Below are positions 20,243-26,193 of a stretch of 38,786 nucleotides of DNA, in pieces. The translations under genes and the position numbers were made by a program. Positions within the stretch are counted from its first letter, which is position 1, and every line of letters begins with the position of its first letter. Source of the DNA: an uncultured Bacteroidales bacterium (GTDB lineage: Bacteria > Bacteroidota > Bacteroidia > Bacteroidales > UBA932); assembly GCA_944325765.1 (NCBI GenBank), contig CALVBH010000069.1, forward strand, positions 1 to 38,786, written 5' to 3'. The notes below the pieces were generated by a model. That model ran no database searches and was not told the origin of the DNA. It saw nothing but the letters and a program-made list of their open reading frames with translations.

Positions 20243-21505
20243 TCAGACTATCTCCAGCCTCAATGCATTCAGTGCTGAAGCCGCGAATCTCTCTATATTC
20301 CGCAGTCTGTCATTTCTGAAACTGAATTTCACCGTACGGGTACCTTTGTCTGAACTAATCCCGACCCATACCAGTCCGACAGGTTTTTCTTCAGAGCCGC
20401 CCCCGGGGCCGGCAATGCCGGTAGTCGCCACGGAATAGTCGCTTCCCGTAAGACGGCGCACTCCTTCAGCCATGGCAGCGGCGCACTGCGGGCTTACGGC
20501 TCCGTAAGTGTCTATGACTTCTGCAGGTACGCCGAGGACATTTTCCTTTACGCTGTTGGCATACGAGACTACGGAGCCGAGGTAATATCCGGATGCGCCT
20601 GGAACGGACGTCAGAAGCGAGGCTACAAGTCCGCCGGTACAGGATTCAGCGGTGCTGACGGTTTTTCCCGCAGCAAGCAGAAGTTCTCCCGTGACTTCCT
20701 GCAGCGTCTTTTCCTCTTCCGCATATATGCTGCTGCCGAGAATCTCTTTAAGAAGCGATGTCTGCCTCCTGAATATCCCGTCGGCGCTCTCTTCGGAATA
20801 CTCTCCGTATACGGACATCCTGAGGGCAACTCCCTTCAACGGATCAGGAAGATATGCCAGCCGGACATTTTCGGGAAGATTCGCTTCCCATCCTGAAATT
20901 TTTTCGGAGAGGGCGGATTCCGCTATGCCGTATGTCATTATGGTCTTGTGCCTGATGGTCGCTATGGAGAAGGCGGACCTTATATCCGCCATAACGTCCG
21001 GCAAGGCCCCGAGCGCTTCATACGGTACGCCCGGGAGAGAATACAGCACGGCACGGTGACCGAACCGTTCTTCAGGGAATCTGACAGCCATTACCGGGGC
21101 AGTCCCGAGCTGATTGGGAATGACATCGCACCGTGACGGGACCGAAGCCTGCTGTCTGTTGATTTCCAGTACATCCAGACCTCTGGAAGACAATATCCGG
21201 TGAATGATTTCTAACTGGCGTGCATCTGTCCTGTATCCTTCGCTCCCTGAAAGAGTGTACAGGACCTTTTTCGTGACATCATCCTTTGTAGGGCCGAGTC
21301 CTCCCGTGATGATTACGATATCATTGGTCTGCAATCCTTTGAGTACGGCTTCTTCTATTTCCCGGGCCGAATCCCCGACCGACATCATCATAGTGGTCCT
21401 GATGCCGTTTTTCCCCAGTTCCCTGGCTATTCCGGCCGAATTCGTATCCGTTATCTGGCCGATAAGGATTTCATCTCCTATCGTGCAAATCGCTGCTGTT
21501 GTCAT
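20243..21505 (-). CDS. cinA: CinA, nicotinamide-nucleotide amidohydrolase
   Basis: A 420-residue two-domain CinA protein. The N-terminal molybdopterin-binding-like (COG1058) domain starts AAICTIGDEILIGQITDTNS and includes VIITGGLGPTKDDVTKK. The C-terminal PncC-type amidase domain contains STAESCTGGLVASLLTSVPG and GIAGPGGGSEEKPVGLVWVG. In studied bacteria the C-terminal domain deamidates nicotinamide mononucleotide in pyridine-nucleotide recycling, and the N-terminal domain hydrolyses ADP-ribose. The ATG overlaps the pyrD stop codon by 4 bp, so translation is probably coupled to pyrD. Confidence 0.93.
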   Translation of the reverse strand: MTTAAICTIGDEILIGQITDTNSAGIARELGKNGIRTTMMMSVGDSAREIEEAVLKGLQTNDIVIITGGLGPTKDDVTKKVLYTLSGSEGYRTDARQLEIIHRILSSRGLDVLEINRQQASVPSRCDVIPNQLGTAPVMAVRFPEERFGHRAVLYSLPGVPYEALGALPDVMADIRSAFSIATIRHKTIMTYGIAESALSEKISGWEANLPENVRLAYLPDPLKGVALRMSVYGEYSEESADGIFRRQTSLLKEILGSSIYAEEEKTLQEVTGELLLAAGKTVSTAESCTGGLVASLLTSVPGASGYYLGSVVSYANSVKENVLGVPAEVIDTYGAVSPQCAAAMAEGVRRLTGSDYSVATTGIAGPGGGSEEKPVGLVWVGISSDKGTRTVKFSFRNDRLRNIERFAASALNALRLEIV

Positions 21506-22536
21506 TGTTTTCCGAGTATGGCTTTCTTGATTTTCTTTATCAGGGACGGCCCCTCATAAATGAAGCCGCTGTAGATTTCCACGAGCGAGGCTCCTGCATC
21601 GAGCATTTCCTTAGCCTGGGCGGCGGACATGATGCCACCGACGCCGATGATGGGAAGTTTCCCTTTCGATTTGGCGGCAATATACCTGACCAGTTCCAGA
21701 CTTTTGGCATACAATGGCGCCCCGGACATTCCTCCGTTGCCGATTTCCTCTATTTTTTCCTTCGGCAACGTCAGACCGTCGCGCGATCTTGTCGTGTTTC
21801 CGGCGACTATGCCGTCCACACCCGACATGAGAGCATAGTCTATGATTTCATCGAGCTGCTGATGCGAAATATCGGGGGAGACCTTGATCAGGACAGGCCT
21901 GTATTCGTCGAAATACATCCGGAGGTCCAGCAGTTTGTCGACGATGTCGGACAGGAATGAAACATCCTGCAGATCCGACAGACCGCTGACATTCGGACAG
22001 GAAATATTTATGACGAACATATCCACGAAATCATACAGAAGGGCGAATGCGGATTCGTAATCCTTCGCCGCATCATCGTTTATACTCGAAGTGTTCTTCG
22101 ATATGTTCCCGGCTATCAGTACATTGGGCTTTTCCCGCCTCAGATGCTCCACGGCGTTTTTCACACCCTTGTTATTGATGCCCATACGGTTTATTATGGC
22201 CCTGTCGCGGACTGAGCGGAACAGGCGCGGTCTTGGATTCCCGGGCTGGGGTTCGGGTGTCAGAGAGCCGATTTCCACGAATCCGAAGCCGAAATTCGCC
22301 AGATCGTTGTAAAATTCGCCGTTTTTGTCGAGGCCGCCGGCCAGACCCACGGGATTCCTGAATCTCAGGCCGAAAACCTCCCGTTCAAGCTCCGGTGCAT
22401 CGCACTTGTAGGTCATCCTGATGATTTTACCGGCGAACGGTATGAATCTCAGTATTTTCAGTGCGGCGAAAGTCAGGTTGTGCGCTGTTTCGGGAGAAAA
22501 GCTGAAAAGAATGGGGCGGATAATCTGCTTGTACAT
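21502..22536 (-). CDS. pyrD: Dihydroorotate dehydrogenase, class-2-type (quinone-dependent)
   Basis: A 344-residue FMN enzyme that oxidises dihydroorotate to orotate in pyrimidine synthesis. The amphipathic N-terminal extension (MYKQIIRPILFSFSPETAHN) that ties class 2 enzymes to the membrane quinone pool is present, followed by GLRFRNPVGLAGGLDKNGEF, NRMGINNKG, IKVSPDISHQQLDEI and the FMN phosphate site IGVGGIMSAAQAKEML. The active-site loop reads INISCPNVSGLSDLQ, with cysteine (C180) where E. coli class 2 PyrD has serine. The gene has its own -7 element (22580-22587) and is translationally coupled to cinA. Confidence 0.92.
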   Translation of the reverse strand: MYKQIIRPILFSFSPETAHNLTFAALKILRFIPFAGKIIRMTYKCDAPELEREVFGLRFRNPVGLAGGLDKNGEFYNDLANFGFGFVEIGSLTPEPQPGNPRPRLFRSVRDRAIINRMGINNKGVKNAVEHLRREKPNVLIAGNISKNTSSINDDAAKDYESAFALLYDFVDMFVINISCPNVSGLSDLQDVSFLSDIVDKLLDLRMYFDEYRPVLIKVSPDISHQQLDEIIDYALMSGVDGIVAGNTTRSRDGLTLPKEKIEEIGNGGMSGAPLYAKSLELVRYIAAKSKGKLPIIGVGGIMSAAQAKEMLDAGASLVEIYSGFIYEGPSLIKKIKKAILGKQ

Positions 22537-22579: not shown

Positions 22580-22587
22580 CAAAGATA
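22580..22587 (-). promoter_or_regulatory. -7 promoter element for pyrD-cinA
   Basis: On the minus strand 22587-22580 reads TATCTTTG followed by CC, a perfect TAnnTTTG. The predicted start near 22573 leaves a leader of about 37 nt. No clear -33 box. It lies in the 101-bp gap after the XRE gene. Confidence 0.5.
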
Positions 22588-22637: not shown

Positions 22638-23066
22638 CTATCGGCTGAATTCCTCGAAAGTGCTGTCGTCGTAGAAAACGATGATTTTCCGGACCTTTCT
22701 CTGGGCCGCAGGAGTATCGGCAGCGGCAATTCCTTCATTTTCAGGCTCTCGTGCCGGTTTTTCCCCGACAACGGTATCTTCTGCCGGAACTTCTTCGGCA
22801 GGAACCTCTGCCGGAAACGGCAATACGGCCATGGAAGCCGGATACCGCGGTTTTTCCGTCTTGTACATTTTCCCTTTGCCGCTAATCAGCCATTCGATAT
22901 TCAGGGCAGGGTAGTATTTGGTCAGATTCAGAAGAAATTCGTACCCCGGCTTGTTCCGGCCCGAAAGAATATGTGAAACACTCGCTCTTGCCACGTTGAT
23001 TTTATCGGCAAAAGCTGCCTGCGATATGTTTTCAGCTGCCAGAAACTGTTCGAGACGCTCGTTCAT
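22638..23066 (-). CDS. XRE-family helix-turn-helix transcriptional regulator
   Basis: A 142-residue DNA-binding protein. Residues 1-65 form a Cro/CI-type helix-turn-helix domain: MNERLEQFLAAEN, then SQAAFADKINVARASVSHIL (about 15-34) with the recognition helix near ARASVSHIL, then SGRNKPGYEFL and NIEWLISGKGKMY. A proline/alanine/glutamate-rich linker (about 72-120) leads to a short conserved-looking tail RKVRKIIVFYDDSTFEEFSR. There is no protease or phage-repressor C-terminal domain, and no phage genes are nearby. Three palindromic sites lie 17-78 bp upstream of its start codon and two more with a core site precede queA, so it probably regulates itself and perhaps queA. The binding is inferred from position and symmetry. 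Confidence 0.85.
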   Translation of the reverse strand: MNERLEQFLAAENISQAAFADKINVARASVSHILSGRNKPGYEFLLNLTKYYPALNIEWLISGKGKMYKTEKPRYPASMAVLPFPAEVPAEEVPAEDTVVGEKPAREPENEGIAAADTPAAQRKVRKIIVFYDDSTFEEFSR

Positions 23067-23082
23067 GATTGTATTCGATTTG

Positions 23083-23144
23083 ATTACAAATGTAATAATT
23101 TAATTAATAACAAATGTAACTTGTTTTCGGATTACATTTGTAAA
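23083..23144. promoter_or_regulatory. Operator cluster 1: three palindromic sites at exact 24-bp spacing
   Basis: Site 1 (23083-23096) is ATTACA-AA-TGTAAT, a perfect 6-2-6 inverted repeat. Site 2 (23108-23119) is TAACA-AA-TGTAA with one mismatch between arms. Site 3 (23131-23144) is ATTACA-TT-TGTAAA with one outer mismatch. Their centres are at 23089.5, 23113.5 and 23137.5, exactly 24 bp apart. The cluster begins 17 bp upstream of the XRE start codon. Each site contains TACATTTG, a TAnnTTTG -7 element, on the minus strand for sites 1 and 2 and on the plus strand for site 3. Probable binding sites for the adjacent XRE protein. Confidence 0.7.
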
Positions 23145-23413
23145 ATATGATAGGGGAGTGACGGTAATGACTTGAAGTTATTGTTTAGGTATCTGAGTAA
23201 ATATCTTGGTTTTTAATATGTTAATCTATTAAATAATCATTCTGTCCGTATGTTTCGGTAAAGTTTGACCCGGAACCGCGCGACAAGTTAGAGTATAAAT
23301 TTACATAATACTATATAATATATTGGGTATTAAATAATTATAATGGCGATTATTATTGTGTTTACATTATTGAATTATCCCGAACCGACTCTGTTCAACT
23401 TTATAACACGCAA

Positions 23414-23482
23414 ACAAATGTCTGCTATTGATTGTTTACAAATGTATTATGCGGATTAAATATTGTTATTTACATTTGTAAT
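23414..23482. promoter_or_regulatory. Operator cluster 2 upstream of queA
   Basis: A core site ACAAATGT (23414-23421), site 4 TTTACA-AA-TGTATT (23435-23448) and site 5 TTTACA-TT-TGTAAT (23469-23482). Centres are at 23417.5, 23441.5 and 23475.5, giving spacings of 24 and 34 bp. Site 5 contains a plus-strand TACATTTG (23471-23478) with a TATG box 19 bp upstream (23448-23451), so it could be the -7 element of a repressible promoter reading toward queA. Confidence 0.6.
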
Positions 23483-23527: not shown

Positions 23528-23558
23528 TTTCAAAATACGCCGTAATTGTGTATTTTCG
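23528..23558 (+). promoter_or_regulatory. Possible constitutive promoter for queA
   Basis: TTTC (23528-23531), a 19-bp spacer, then TATTTTCG (23551-23558), each one base from the -33 TTTG and -7 TAnnTTTG consensus. Transcription would start near 23565, about 9 nt before the chosen ATG. It is weaker than other promoters in the window. Confidence 0.35.
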
Positions 23559-23573
23559 CCGAAAATTTTCCAG

Positions 23574-24797
23574 ATGATACCAGAAATCAGAATATCGGAC
23601 TATGACTACTGCCTCCCGGACGAACGGATAGCGAAATACCCGCTTCCGCAAAGGGACATGTCCAAACTGCTGTGCTACCGGCACGGAAAAGTCTCCGGAC
23701 ATACCTTCAGGGAAATCGTGGATTTCATACCGGATAATTCCATAATGGTCTTCAACGACACGAAAGTAGTCCCGGCCAGGCTGCATTTCCAGCGGGAGAC
23801 AGGAGCCCACATAGAAATTTTCTGTCTGGAGCCGGCCAGTCCTCCGGAATACAGCCGGATTTTCGCCGAAACGGCTTCCTGCCGGTGGAAATGCATCGTA
23901 GGCAACATTAAACGCTGGAAATCCGATGTACTGCATCTTTACAATCCGGAAAATGACCCCGAAGTTCTCTCTCTCGGTCTCGAAGCCGTGCTGGTAGAGC
24001 GTGAGCAGGAAACGGCCGTGGTGGAATTCTCCTGGTCCGGAGGACTGCCTTTTTCGCGGGTTCTCGAAATCTGCGGCAGTGTACCTATCCCGCCCTATCT
24101 TGACCGGGATTCGGAGGCTGTAGATACTGAACGTTACCAGACTCTGTATGCAAAATACCGCGGTTCGGTAGCTGCCCCTACTGCGGGACTGCATTTTGCC
24201 GAAGAGGAACTGACAGCGATAAAAAACAAGGGGACGGATATGGAAAATGTCTGTCTTCACGTCGGTGCCGGAACATTCCTGCCGGTAAAATCCGAGCTTG
24301 TTTCGGGCCACAGAATGCACAGGGAGCCCTTTATAGTGAAAAAATCCCTCATAGAGAAACTCATCGGCCGCAGGAAACCCGTCACTGCTGTAGGAACTAC
24401 TTCCGTGCGAACTCTGGAATCATTGTATTATACAGGAGTAAGCTGTATCGAAAAAGGCTGGCCTGAAGATGTGTCGCAGTGGGCACCCTATGAACGCGAG
24501 TATCCCTATACTACGGATGAAGCCCTTCAAGCCATCGTCTCTTATCTGAATGACCATGCGCTCGATGAACTGAAGACCGCCACGAGAATCATCATCGTCC
24601 CTGGATTCGATTTCCGTATCACCGATATTCTCGTGACCAATTTCCATCAGCCCCAAAGCACTCTGCTTCTGCTGATTTCGGCATTTACGGGAGGCGACTG
24701 GAAACGGATTTACAGTTACGCTCTGGAGCACGGCTTCAGGTTTCTCAGCTATGGCGACAGCTCCATTCTGTTCCGTGATCCGTCCCCGCAGGAATGA
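23574..24797 (+). CDS. queA: S-adenosylmethionine:tRNA ribosyltransferase-isomerase QueA
   Basis: A 407-residue QueA, which transfers the ribosyl group of S-adenosylmethionine to preQ1 at tRNA position 34, forming epoxyqueuosine. Family signatures are the start ISDYDYCLPDERIAKYPL, then MVFNDTKVVPARL, VPIPPYLDR, APTAGLHF, HVGAGTFLPVK, VGTTSVRTLESL and the C-terminal TNFHQPQSTLLLLISAF. It is somewhat longer than the common ~350 residues because of an insert around the region CIEKGWPEDVSQWAPYE. The ATG at 23574 matches the family N-terminus; an in-frame upstream extension from 23463 covers operator site 5 and is rejected. It follows the AT-rich operator region and may be co-regulated by the XRE protein. 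Confidence 0.93.
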   Translation: MIPEIRISDYDYCLPDERIAKYPLPQRDMSKLLCYRHGKVSGHTFREIVDFIPDNSIMVFNDTKVVPARLHFQRETGAHIEIFCLEPASPPEYSRIFAETASCRWKCIVGNIKRWKSDVLHLYNPENDPEVLSLGLEAVLVEREQETAVVEFSWSGGLPFSRVLEICGSVPIPPYLDRDSEAVDTERYQTLYAKYRGSVAAPTAGLHFAEEELTAIKNKGTDMENVCLHVGAGTFLPVKSELVSGHRMHREPFIVKKSLIEKLIGRRKPVTAVGTTSVRTLESLYYTGVSCIEKGWPEDVSQWAPYEREYPYTTDEALQAIVSYLNDHALDELKTATRIIIVPGFDFRITDILVTNFHQPQSTLLLLISAFTGGDWKRIYSYALEHGFRFLSYGDSSILFRDPSPQE

Positions 24798-26096: not shown

Positions 26097-26193
26097 TTAC
26101 ACTTTTAGTTAACATAATATAAATTGTATGACGAAAATGTTTCTTTCCGCGAACTCACTTTATCTTGTCTGACGGATAATTCCGGGATTTTTA

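Follow-up and report, generated by a model that had tools for sequence, protein, structure and literature searches.

Evenly spaced palindromic sites upstream of a Bacteroidales XRE regulator gene that is frequently linked to dif-like sites

The operators of the lambda CI repressor lie about 24 bp apart, and those of the BlaI, MecI and CopY repressors carry the core TACAnnTGTA. Sites that recall both features are found upstream of an XRE regulator gene in the window, the term used here for the whole stretch of 38,786 nucleotides analysed (uncultured Bacteroidales bacterium, GenBank assembly GCA_944325765.1, contig CALVBH010000069.1). No description of the XRE protein or its operator was found among the literature titles and abstract openings listed. 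The genes and candidate operators of the locus are as follows.

21502 to 22536, reverse strand: pyrD, quinone-dependent dihydroorotate dehydrogenase, named from family matches
22638 to 23066, reverse strand: XRE regulator gene, 142 amino acids, N-terminal HTH_3 and a C-terminal motif resembling KIIVFYDDGTFEEF
23083 to 23096: candidate operator 1, proximal, ATTACAAATGTAAT, no mismatches to ATTACANNTGTAAT, arms perfect
23107 to 23120: candidate operator 2, ATAACAAATGTAAC, two mismatches to ATTACANNTGTAAT, centre 24 bp from that of operator 1
23131 to 23144: candidate operator 3, ATTACATTTGTAAA, one mismatch to ATTACANNTGTAAT, centre 24 bp from that of operator 2
23435 to 23448: candidate operator 4, distal cluster, in the same XRE-queA intergenic region
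23469 to 23482: candidate operator 5, distal cluster, 34 bp from operator 4
23574 to 24797, forward strand: queA-type gene, long paralogue, divergent (PF02547 at 2.1e-93; NCBIfam QueA equivalog above its cut-off)

The three palindromes at exact 24-bp spacing given in the preliminary description are confirmed, with centres at 23089.5, 23113.5 and 23137.5, as is their placement just upstream of the XRE start, 16 bases separating operator 1 from the ATG. Operator 1 had been called a perfect inverted repeat, which is true of its arms; its AA centre is not self-complementary. The count of three sites is correct but missed operators 4 and 5 in the same intergenic region. The preliminary description knew of no operator of this form for the protein family; the form itself is not new, since the BlaI, MecI and CopY operators of a different protein family have the TACAnnTGTA core.

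The excess of sites is local to the XRE-queA intergenic region and not window-wide. Its 507 bp contain five matches to TTACANNTGTAA when one mismatch is allowed, whereas 3000 shuffles of the region averaged 0.07 and never exceeded 2; matches with up to three mismatches over the whole window number 11, against 10.8 expected. The exact motif TTACAWWTGTAA occurs at three places in the 2.27-Mb assembly containing the window (88% complete), all at the XRE locus. Allowing one mismatch gives 18 places, five of them at the XRE locus, and the remaining 13 look like background because a control with the motif read backwards gives 16. The sites are probably operators of the adjacent XRE protein, at which cooperative dimers would repress its own gene and form a looped or wrapped complex of about 500 bp near a dif-like site.

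The site, its position and the 23/24-bp spacing recur upstream of XRE orthologues across Bacteroidales families. Two sets of loci were compared. The near set has 49 loci, namely the 49 found with the XRE protein, minus L062 (match start not ATG), plus the window; its members are not all independent, L017 and L064 coming from one assembly and L020 and L022 being near-identical. The further set has 32 of the 42 loci L116 to L157, 29 of them from other Bacteroidales families and three (L116, L120 and L134) from the window's own. Those dropped, where the reading frame was not found, are L125, L131, L132, L141, L143, L148, L149, L152, L155 and L156.

When one mismatch is allowed, the 120 bp before the XRE start contain a site at 36 of the 49 near loci, against 1.3 in shuffles, and at 27 of the 32 further loci, against 1.7. 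At this threshold, pairs 23 or 24 bp apart are present at 10/49 and 17/32 loci (shuffle 0), and triples at 4/49 and 6/32. With two mismatches allowed, the near set has a site at 46/49 loci (shuffle 10.3), a pair at 18 and a triple at 13; the corresponding values for the further set are 31/32 (shuffle 10.2), 19 and 10. Among neighbouring sites no more than 60 bp apart, the 27 gaps of the near set are 24 bp in 11 cases, 47/48 in seven, 34 in three, 23 in two, 13 in two and other values in two. The 59 gaps of the further set are 24 bp in 16, 23 in 12, 34/35 in seven and 47/48 in three, and the other 21 are scattered. The 47/48-bp gap is that of a skipped site. Helical periods of 10, 10.5 and 11 were tried, and 11 fitted best. 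The difference between the preferred gaps of 23/24 and 34/35 bp is close to one helical turn and suggests that the bound sites share a face of the helix. Eleven near-complete genomes contain 45 exact places, of which 17, distributed over eight of the genomes, are located no more than about 1.4 kb upstream of the XRE gene; G237, G018 and G287 have no exact site there.

The array is not universal. Thirteen of the 49 near loci lack even a one-mismatch site in the 120 bp before the XRE start, and many near orthologues retain the proximal site alone, whose TAnnTTTG sequence (see below) could be accounted for by a promoter element without any operator. The array is absent at the Bacteroides finegoldii homologue, which has a single one-mismatch site 115 bp upstream, at the Parabacteroides distasonis homologue, with no site in 1.2 kb upstream, and at L146 and L157, with none in 700 bp upstream. 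The preliminary description had proposed cooperative autoregulation by the XRE protein and had named loss of the palindrome upstream of orthologues as evidence against it. The motif proved to be kept at the 36 near and 27 further loci given above; the proposal gains from this and from the conserved spacing, and loses from the relatives without the array.

The core motif of the sites also fits that of the BlaI, MecI and CopY class, and another TACAnnTGTA repressor of this class might bind them, the XRE gene being only its target. This is very improbable. The clustering of the sites at the XRE gene across families counts against a BlaI-type regulator, and at E<=1e-3 the BlaI-type family PF03965 has no match in the window's own genome (88% complete) and matches in one of six genomes searched.

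The proximal site of the array overlaps a match to a promoter consensus. TAnnTTTG is the -7 element of Bacteroides fragilis promoters, as given in one report (PMC7366714). The elements assigned in the window are listed below.

22580 to 22587, reverse strand: probable separate pyrD -7 element, TATCTTTG
23087 to 23094, reverse strand: putative XRE -7 element, TACATTTG, a TAnnTTTG match inside operator 1, directed toward the XRE gene
23551 to 23558, forward strand: probable queA -7 element, TATTTTCG

Read on the XRE strand, operator 1 is TTACATTTGTAA, which contains TAnnTTTG. An exact TAnnTTTG is present no more than 45 bases before the XRE start at 46/49 near and 22/32 further loci (shuffle 1.8 and 1.3, respectively). 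It is followed by TAA at 37 of those 46 and 15 of those 22 loci, in a count where ties between matches were settled in favour of one followed by TAA. As a control, TAnnTTT[CG] was found in the last 75 bp before queA at 29 of 44 loci, and TAA is outside the ten commonest followers of this element. The proximal palindrome thus appears to be more than a promoter element, since TAA is not a common follower at the queA promoter. The same comparison bears on the reading that the proximal site is merely a -7 element and the further palindromes an A/T-rich coincidence. The embedded TAnnTTTG, and the several near orthologues that keep that part alone, are in its favour. It is nevertheless the least probable of the explanations weighed here, as coincidence is opposed by the five sites in the region against 0.07 expected and by the 23/24-bp pairs at 10/49 and 17/32 loci against none in shuffles.

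Taken from sequence comparison, the preferred mechanism of operators bound by the XRE protein would run as follows. Dimers of the protein would bind TTACAWWTGTAA, and neighbouring dimers would cooperate at 23/24 bp or, about one helical turn further, at 34/35 bp. Because operator 1 coincides with the XRE -7 element, its occupancy would block RNA polymerase, and the XRE protein would thereby repress its own gene. With a second cluster about 300-340 bp away and two A/T-rich repeats, the region of about 500 bp may fold into a looped or wrapped form, perhaps with an HU/IHF-type protein. One HU/IHF-family match is present in the window's own genome.

The preliminary description covered the array alone; its sites are real, but they form a small part of a larger element that is often near the terminus. 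In the XRE-queA region the two operator clusters flank two A/T-rich repeats.

23173 to 23242: repeat A, A/T-rich, placed by position-weight fit in 44 intergenic regions, weak in the window, where it has no core match with up to three mismatches
23289 to 23358: repeat B, same consensus as A, 116 bp from it, weak in the window

The intergenic alignment has 44 rows with the window. L036 was omitted since its queA match is incomplete, and L017, L038, L045, L062 and L063 as they lack a queA match, with little upstream DNA at L017, L038 and L045. Intergenic length, both start codons included, is 454-619 bp. By position-weight fit, the repeats are 115-120 bp apart at 39/44 loci and 126-130 bp apart at L040, L047, L048, L051 and L053; the fit used the fixed ranges 95-170 and 205-290, which limit the spacing detectable. 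When the matrix from the near loci was applied to the further set, a repeat pair was found at 22/32 loci with a fit reached by at most one of 200 shuffles, and no significant pair at the other 10. The spacing is 115-118 bp at 11 of these loci, 104-106 bp at seven and another value at four, and the two main spacings differ by about one helical turn. On the reverse strand the repeats appear to resemble the IHF consensus. Separately, the word AGGGGAGT / ACTCCCCT, near position 23150 in the window, was observed in 7/44 intergenic regions (shuffle 0); in five of these regions it stands 75-99 bases in from the XRE end.

Other assignments for the intergenic region were tried and rejected. For a structured RNA, there was no Rfam match at the gathering score and one chance-level miRNA match (E 1.5). 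For a conserved RNA fold, 18 of 20 alignment windows of 120 columns, in a very divergent alignment, gave no consensus structure, and the other two gave a hairpin of 3-4 pairs at the operators only. A replication origin would not fit the skew, which is of terminus type, and the 44 regions hold one exact and 10 one-mismatch DnaA boxes. No tRNA was found in the intergenic region. The A/T-rich repeats were also considered as dif, and a separate dif-like sequence was found instead.

The XRE protein contains Pfam HTH_3 (7.2e-08, 32.8 bits against a cut-off of 23), and its Pfam matches are to HTH families only. Among the orthologues the linker varies in length and the short C-terminal motif is conserved. 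Most sampled Bacteroidales encode the protein (259/294 genomes, own included), and it was found in 22/148 genomes of a phylum sample, again with the own genome included. A divergent queA lies within 900 bp at 45/49 near loci, and three of the other four have little upstream DNA. Two full queA-type genes, one canonical and one longer, were observed in 15 of 16 near-complete genomes; the exception is G091, whose second match is short and carries two stops.

The XRE gene is frequently linked to dif-like sites. In the window there is one.

26109 to 26127, reverse strand: dif-like site (XerCD), ACAATTTATATTATGTTAA, single occurrence in the window, at a distance of 3 kb from the XRE gene

This is a candidate chromosome dimer resolution site. 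Sites of this type are not new in Bacteroidetes. A 2011 report predicted dif sites in 19 of 19 Bacteroidetes genomes (PMC3025954), and another of the same year described chromosome dimer resolution as unstudied in the phylum (PMC3091885). The sequence ACAATTTATATTATGTTAA occurs without mismatch once in each of four long contigs of relatives that carry the XRE gene, 9.5-57 kb away; the 19 bp are identical in these contigs and in L049. A sign change of the skew near the dif-like site is seen in G001 and G004; it is less distinct in G002, and G003 shows no clear change.

Linkage was then assessed in 16 near-complete genomes, chosen for few contigs among genomes with an XRE match (G087, with nine contigs and no match, was left out). 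A match to AYAATTWATATTATGTTAA with at most one mismatch, a cut-off chosen after the lists had been viewed, is present on the XRE contig in 12 of the 16, at 0.05-82 kb. The approximate distances are 63 kb in G212, 9 in G183, 6 in G287, 3.5 in G202, 35 in G268, 80 in G279, 0.05 in G201, 0.12 in G271, 22 in G082, 38 in G018, 82 in G259 and 21 in G237, the last being uncertain as a second one-mismatch match lies 1.7 Mb off. The dif-like site is 54 bp downstream of the XRE gene in L147 (G201) and 124 bp downstream in L153 (G271). G157 has two-mismatch matches only, one of them 6 kb from the XRE gene, and in G129, G091 and G262 the surroundings of the gene contain no good match. In the complete genomes G183, G287 and G202 the sampled GC skew flips at the XRE locus; G202 has a single discordant sample at 0.48 Mb. 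G129 has positive skew at 3.2 Mb and a mixed pattern after that, the XRE gene being at 3.84 Mb, which lends loose support to a terminus location. In at least 15 genomes the XRE gene is on one contig with the best dif-like match, at 0.33-89 kb from it, a range biased toward short distances by short contigs; in many more they are on different contigs, which is uninformative in fragmented assemblies. No probability is given for the linkage because the genomes are related and were picked by contiguity among those positive for XRE. Two records labelled as plasmids, NZ_OY725929.1 (L231) and NZ_OY725779.1 (L232), carry holA, the former also ligA, aspS and lon, and look like pieces of chromosome.

The neighbouring genes were placed in the same way. 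Of the 12 genomes, seven have the canonical queA 0.6-2.3 Mb away from the dif-like site and five have it on another contig. The long paralogue, the type in the window, is within about 130 kb of the site in six of the 12 and at 0.2-1.2 Mb in four (one distance taken round the circle); in the other two it is on a different contig. Class 2 pyrD is present in five of the 16 near-complete genomes; seven of the 11 that lack it have the XRE gene close to a dif-like site. From these distances and absences, neither neighbour explains the linkage of the XRE gene to dif.

The XRE protein could instead be a local regulator tied to dihydroorotate dehydrogenase, its terminus linkage being inherited gene order. 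Such a metabolic role is a serious rival because a dihydroorotate dehydrogenase match lies beside the XRE gene at 43/49 near loci (pyrD, downstream) and 23/32 further loci (within 1.5 kb); class 2 pyrD also adjoins the XRE gene in all five near-complete genomes that have it. The enzyme is of two kinds beside the one regulator. At four of those 23 loci and in two named records pyrK-pyrDB is found; it was observed after the XRE gene, replacing class 2 pyrD, at L129, L135, L146 and L157 and in the two records. The metabolic role is all the same judged unlikely, given the seven linked genomes without class 2 pyrD and the likely promoter of pyrD itself. TAnnTTTG is present within 100 bp 3' of the XRE gene at 37/49 near loci, and an operator just 3' of it at 0/49 near and 1/32 further loci.

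The linkage to dif would also suit a domesticated repressor of a phage once integrated there, and the CTX phage, which integrates at dif, and RstR have a history of comparable kind. The XRE protein gives distant matches to phage-repressor profiles, and one phage record encodes a relative 27.5% identical over 99% of the protein. Set against these points, the family is order-wide and mostly single-copy, those neighbours that a family search could name are cellular genes, and the RstR phage repressor model (NF041951) scores 16.9 bits against a cut-off of 80. Phage origin is accordingly improbable, more so than the metabolic role.

A further step beyond self-repression by the XRE protein can be drawn by analogy with partition sites, and is offered tentatively. 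The region of about 500 bp might be a terminus nucleoprotein site of Bacteroidales, at which the XRE protein would bind both clusters, bending proteins would fold the DNA between them, and the linker and C-terminal motif would tether the terminus to a partner in cell division or dimer resolution, with autoregulation setting the level of the protein. If the terminus link is functional, the study of terminus organisation in the phylum gains a defined protein and a defined DNA site. If the protein regulates only itself, the locus provides a clean system in which to study spaced, cooperative repression with the Bacteroides sigma factor.

Among described systems, the HigA and RstR proteins resemble the XRE protein in HTH fold and autoregulation. 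The named neighbours of the XRE gene differ from theirs, being pyrD and queA with no toxin, and the HigA antitoxin model (TIGR02607) scores 19.2 bits against a cut-off of 47.7. BlaI, MecI and CopY, alike in core motif, are of another protein family with no match in the own genome. The MatP/matS system may have a terminus location in common with the locus; the placing of the sites differs, as 17 of the 45 exact sites are found at the XRE gene (in 8 of 11 genomes), like 3 of 3 in the own genome, and among the exact sites, the class mapped, no spread round the terminus was seen. P1 parS is similar in having protein sites on either side of possible bending sites. The likeness to the lambda CI operators OR and OL extends to an HTH repressor, tandem operators about 24 bp apart, one operator over a predicted promoter and two clusters that may loop. 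As differences from CI, Pfam matches the XRE protein to HTH families only, with no match to a C-terminal domain of CI type, and the protein is encoded by a chromosomal gene of an order, with A/T-rich repeats between the clusters.
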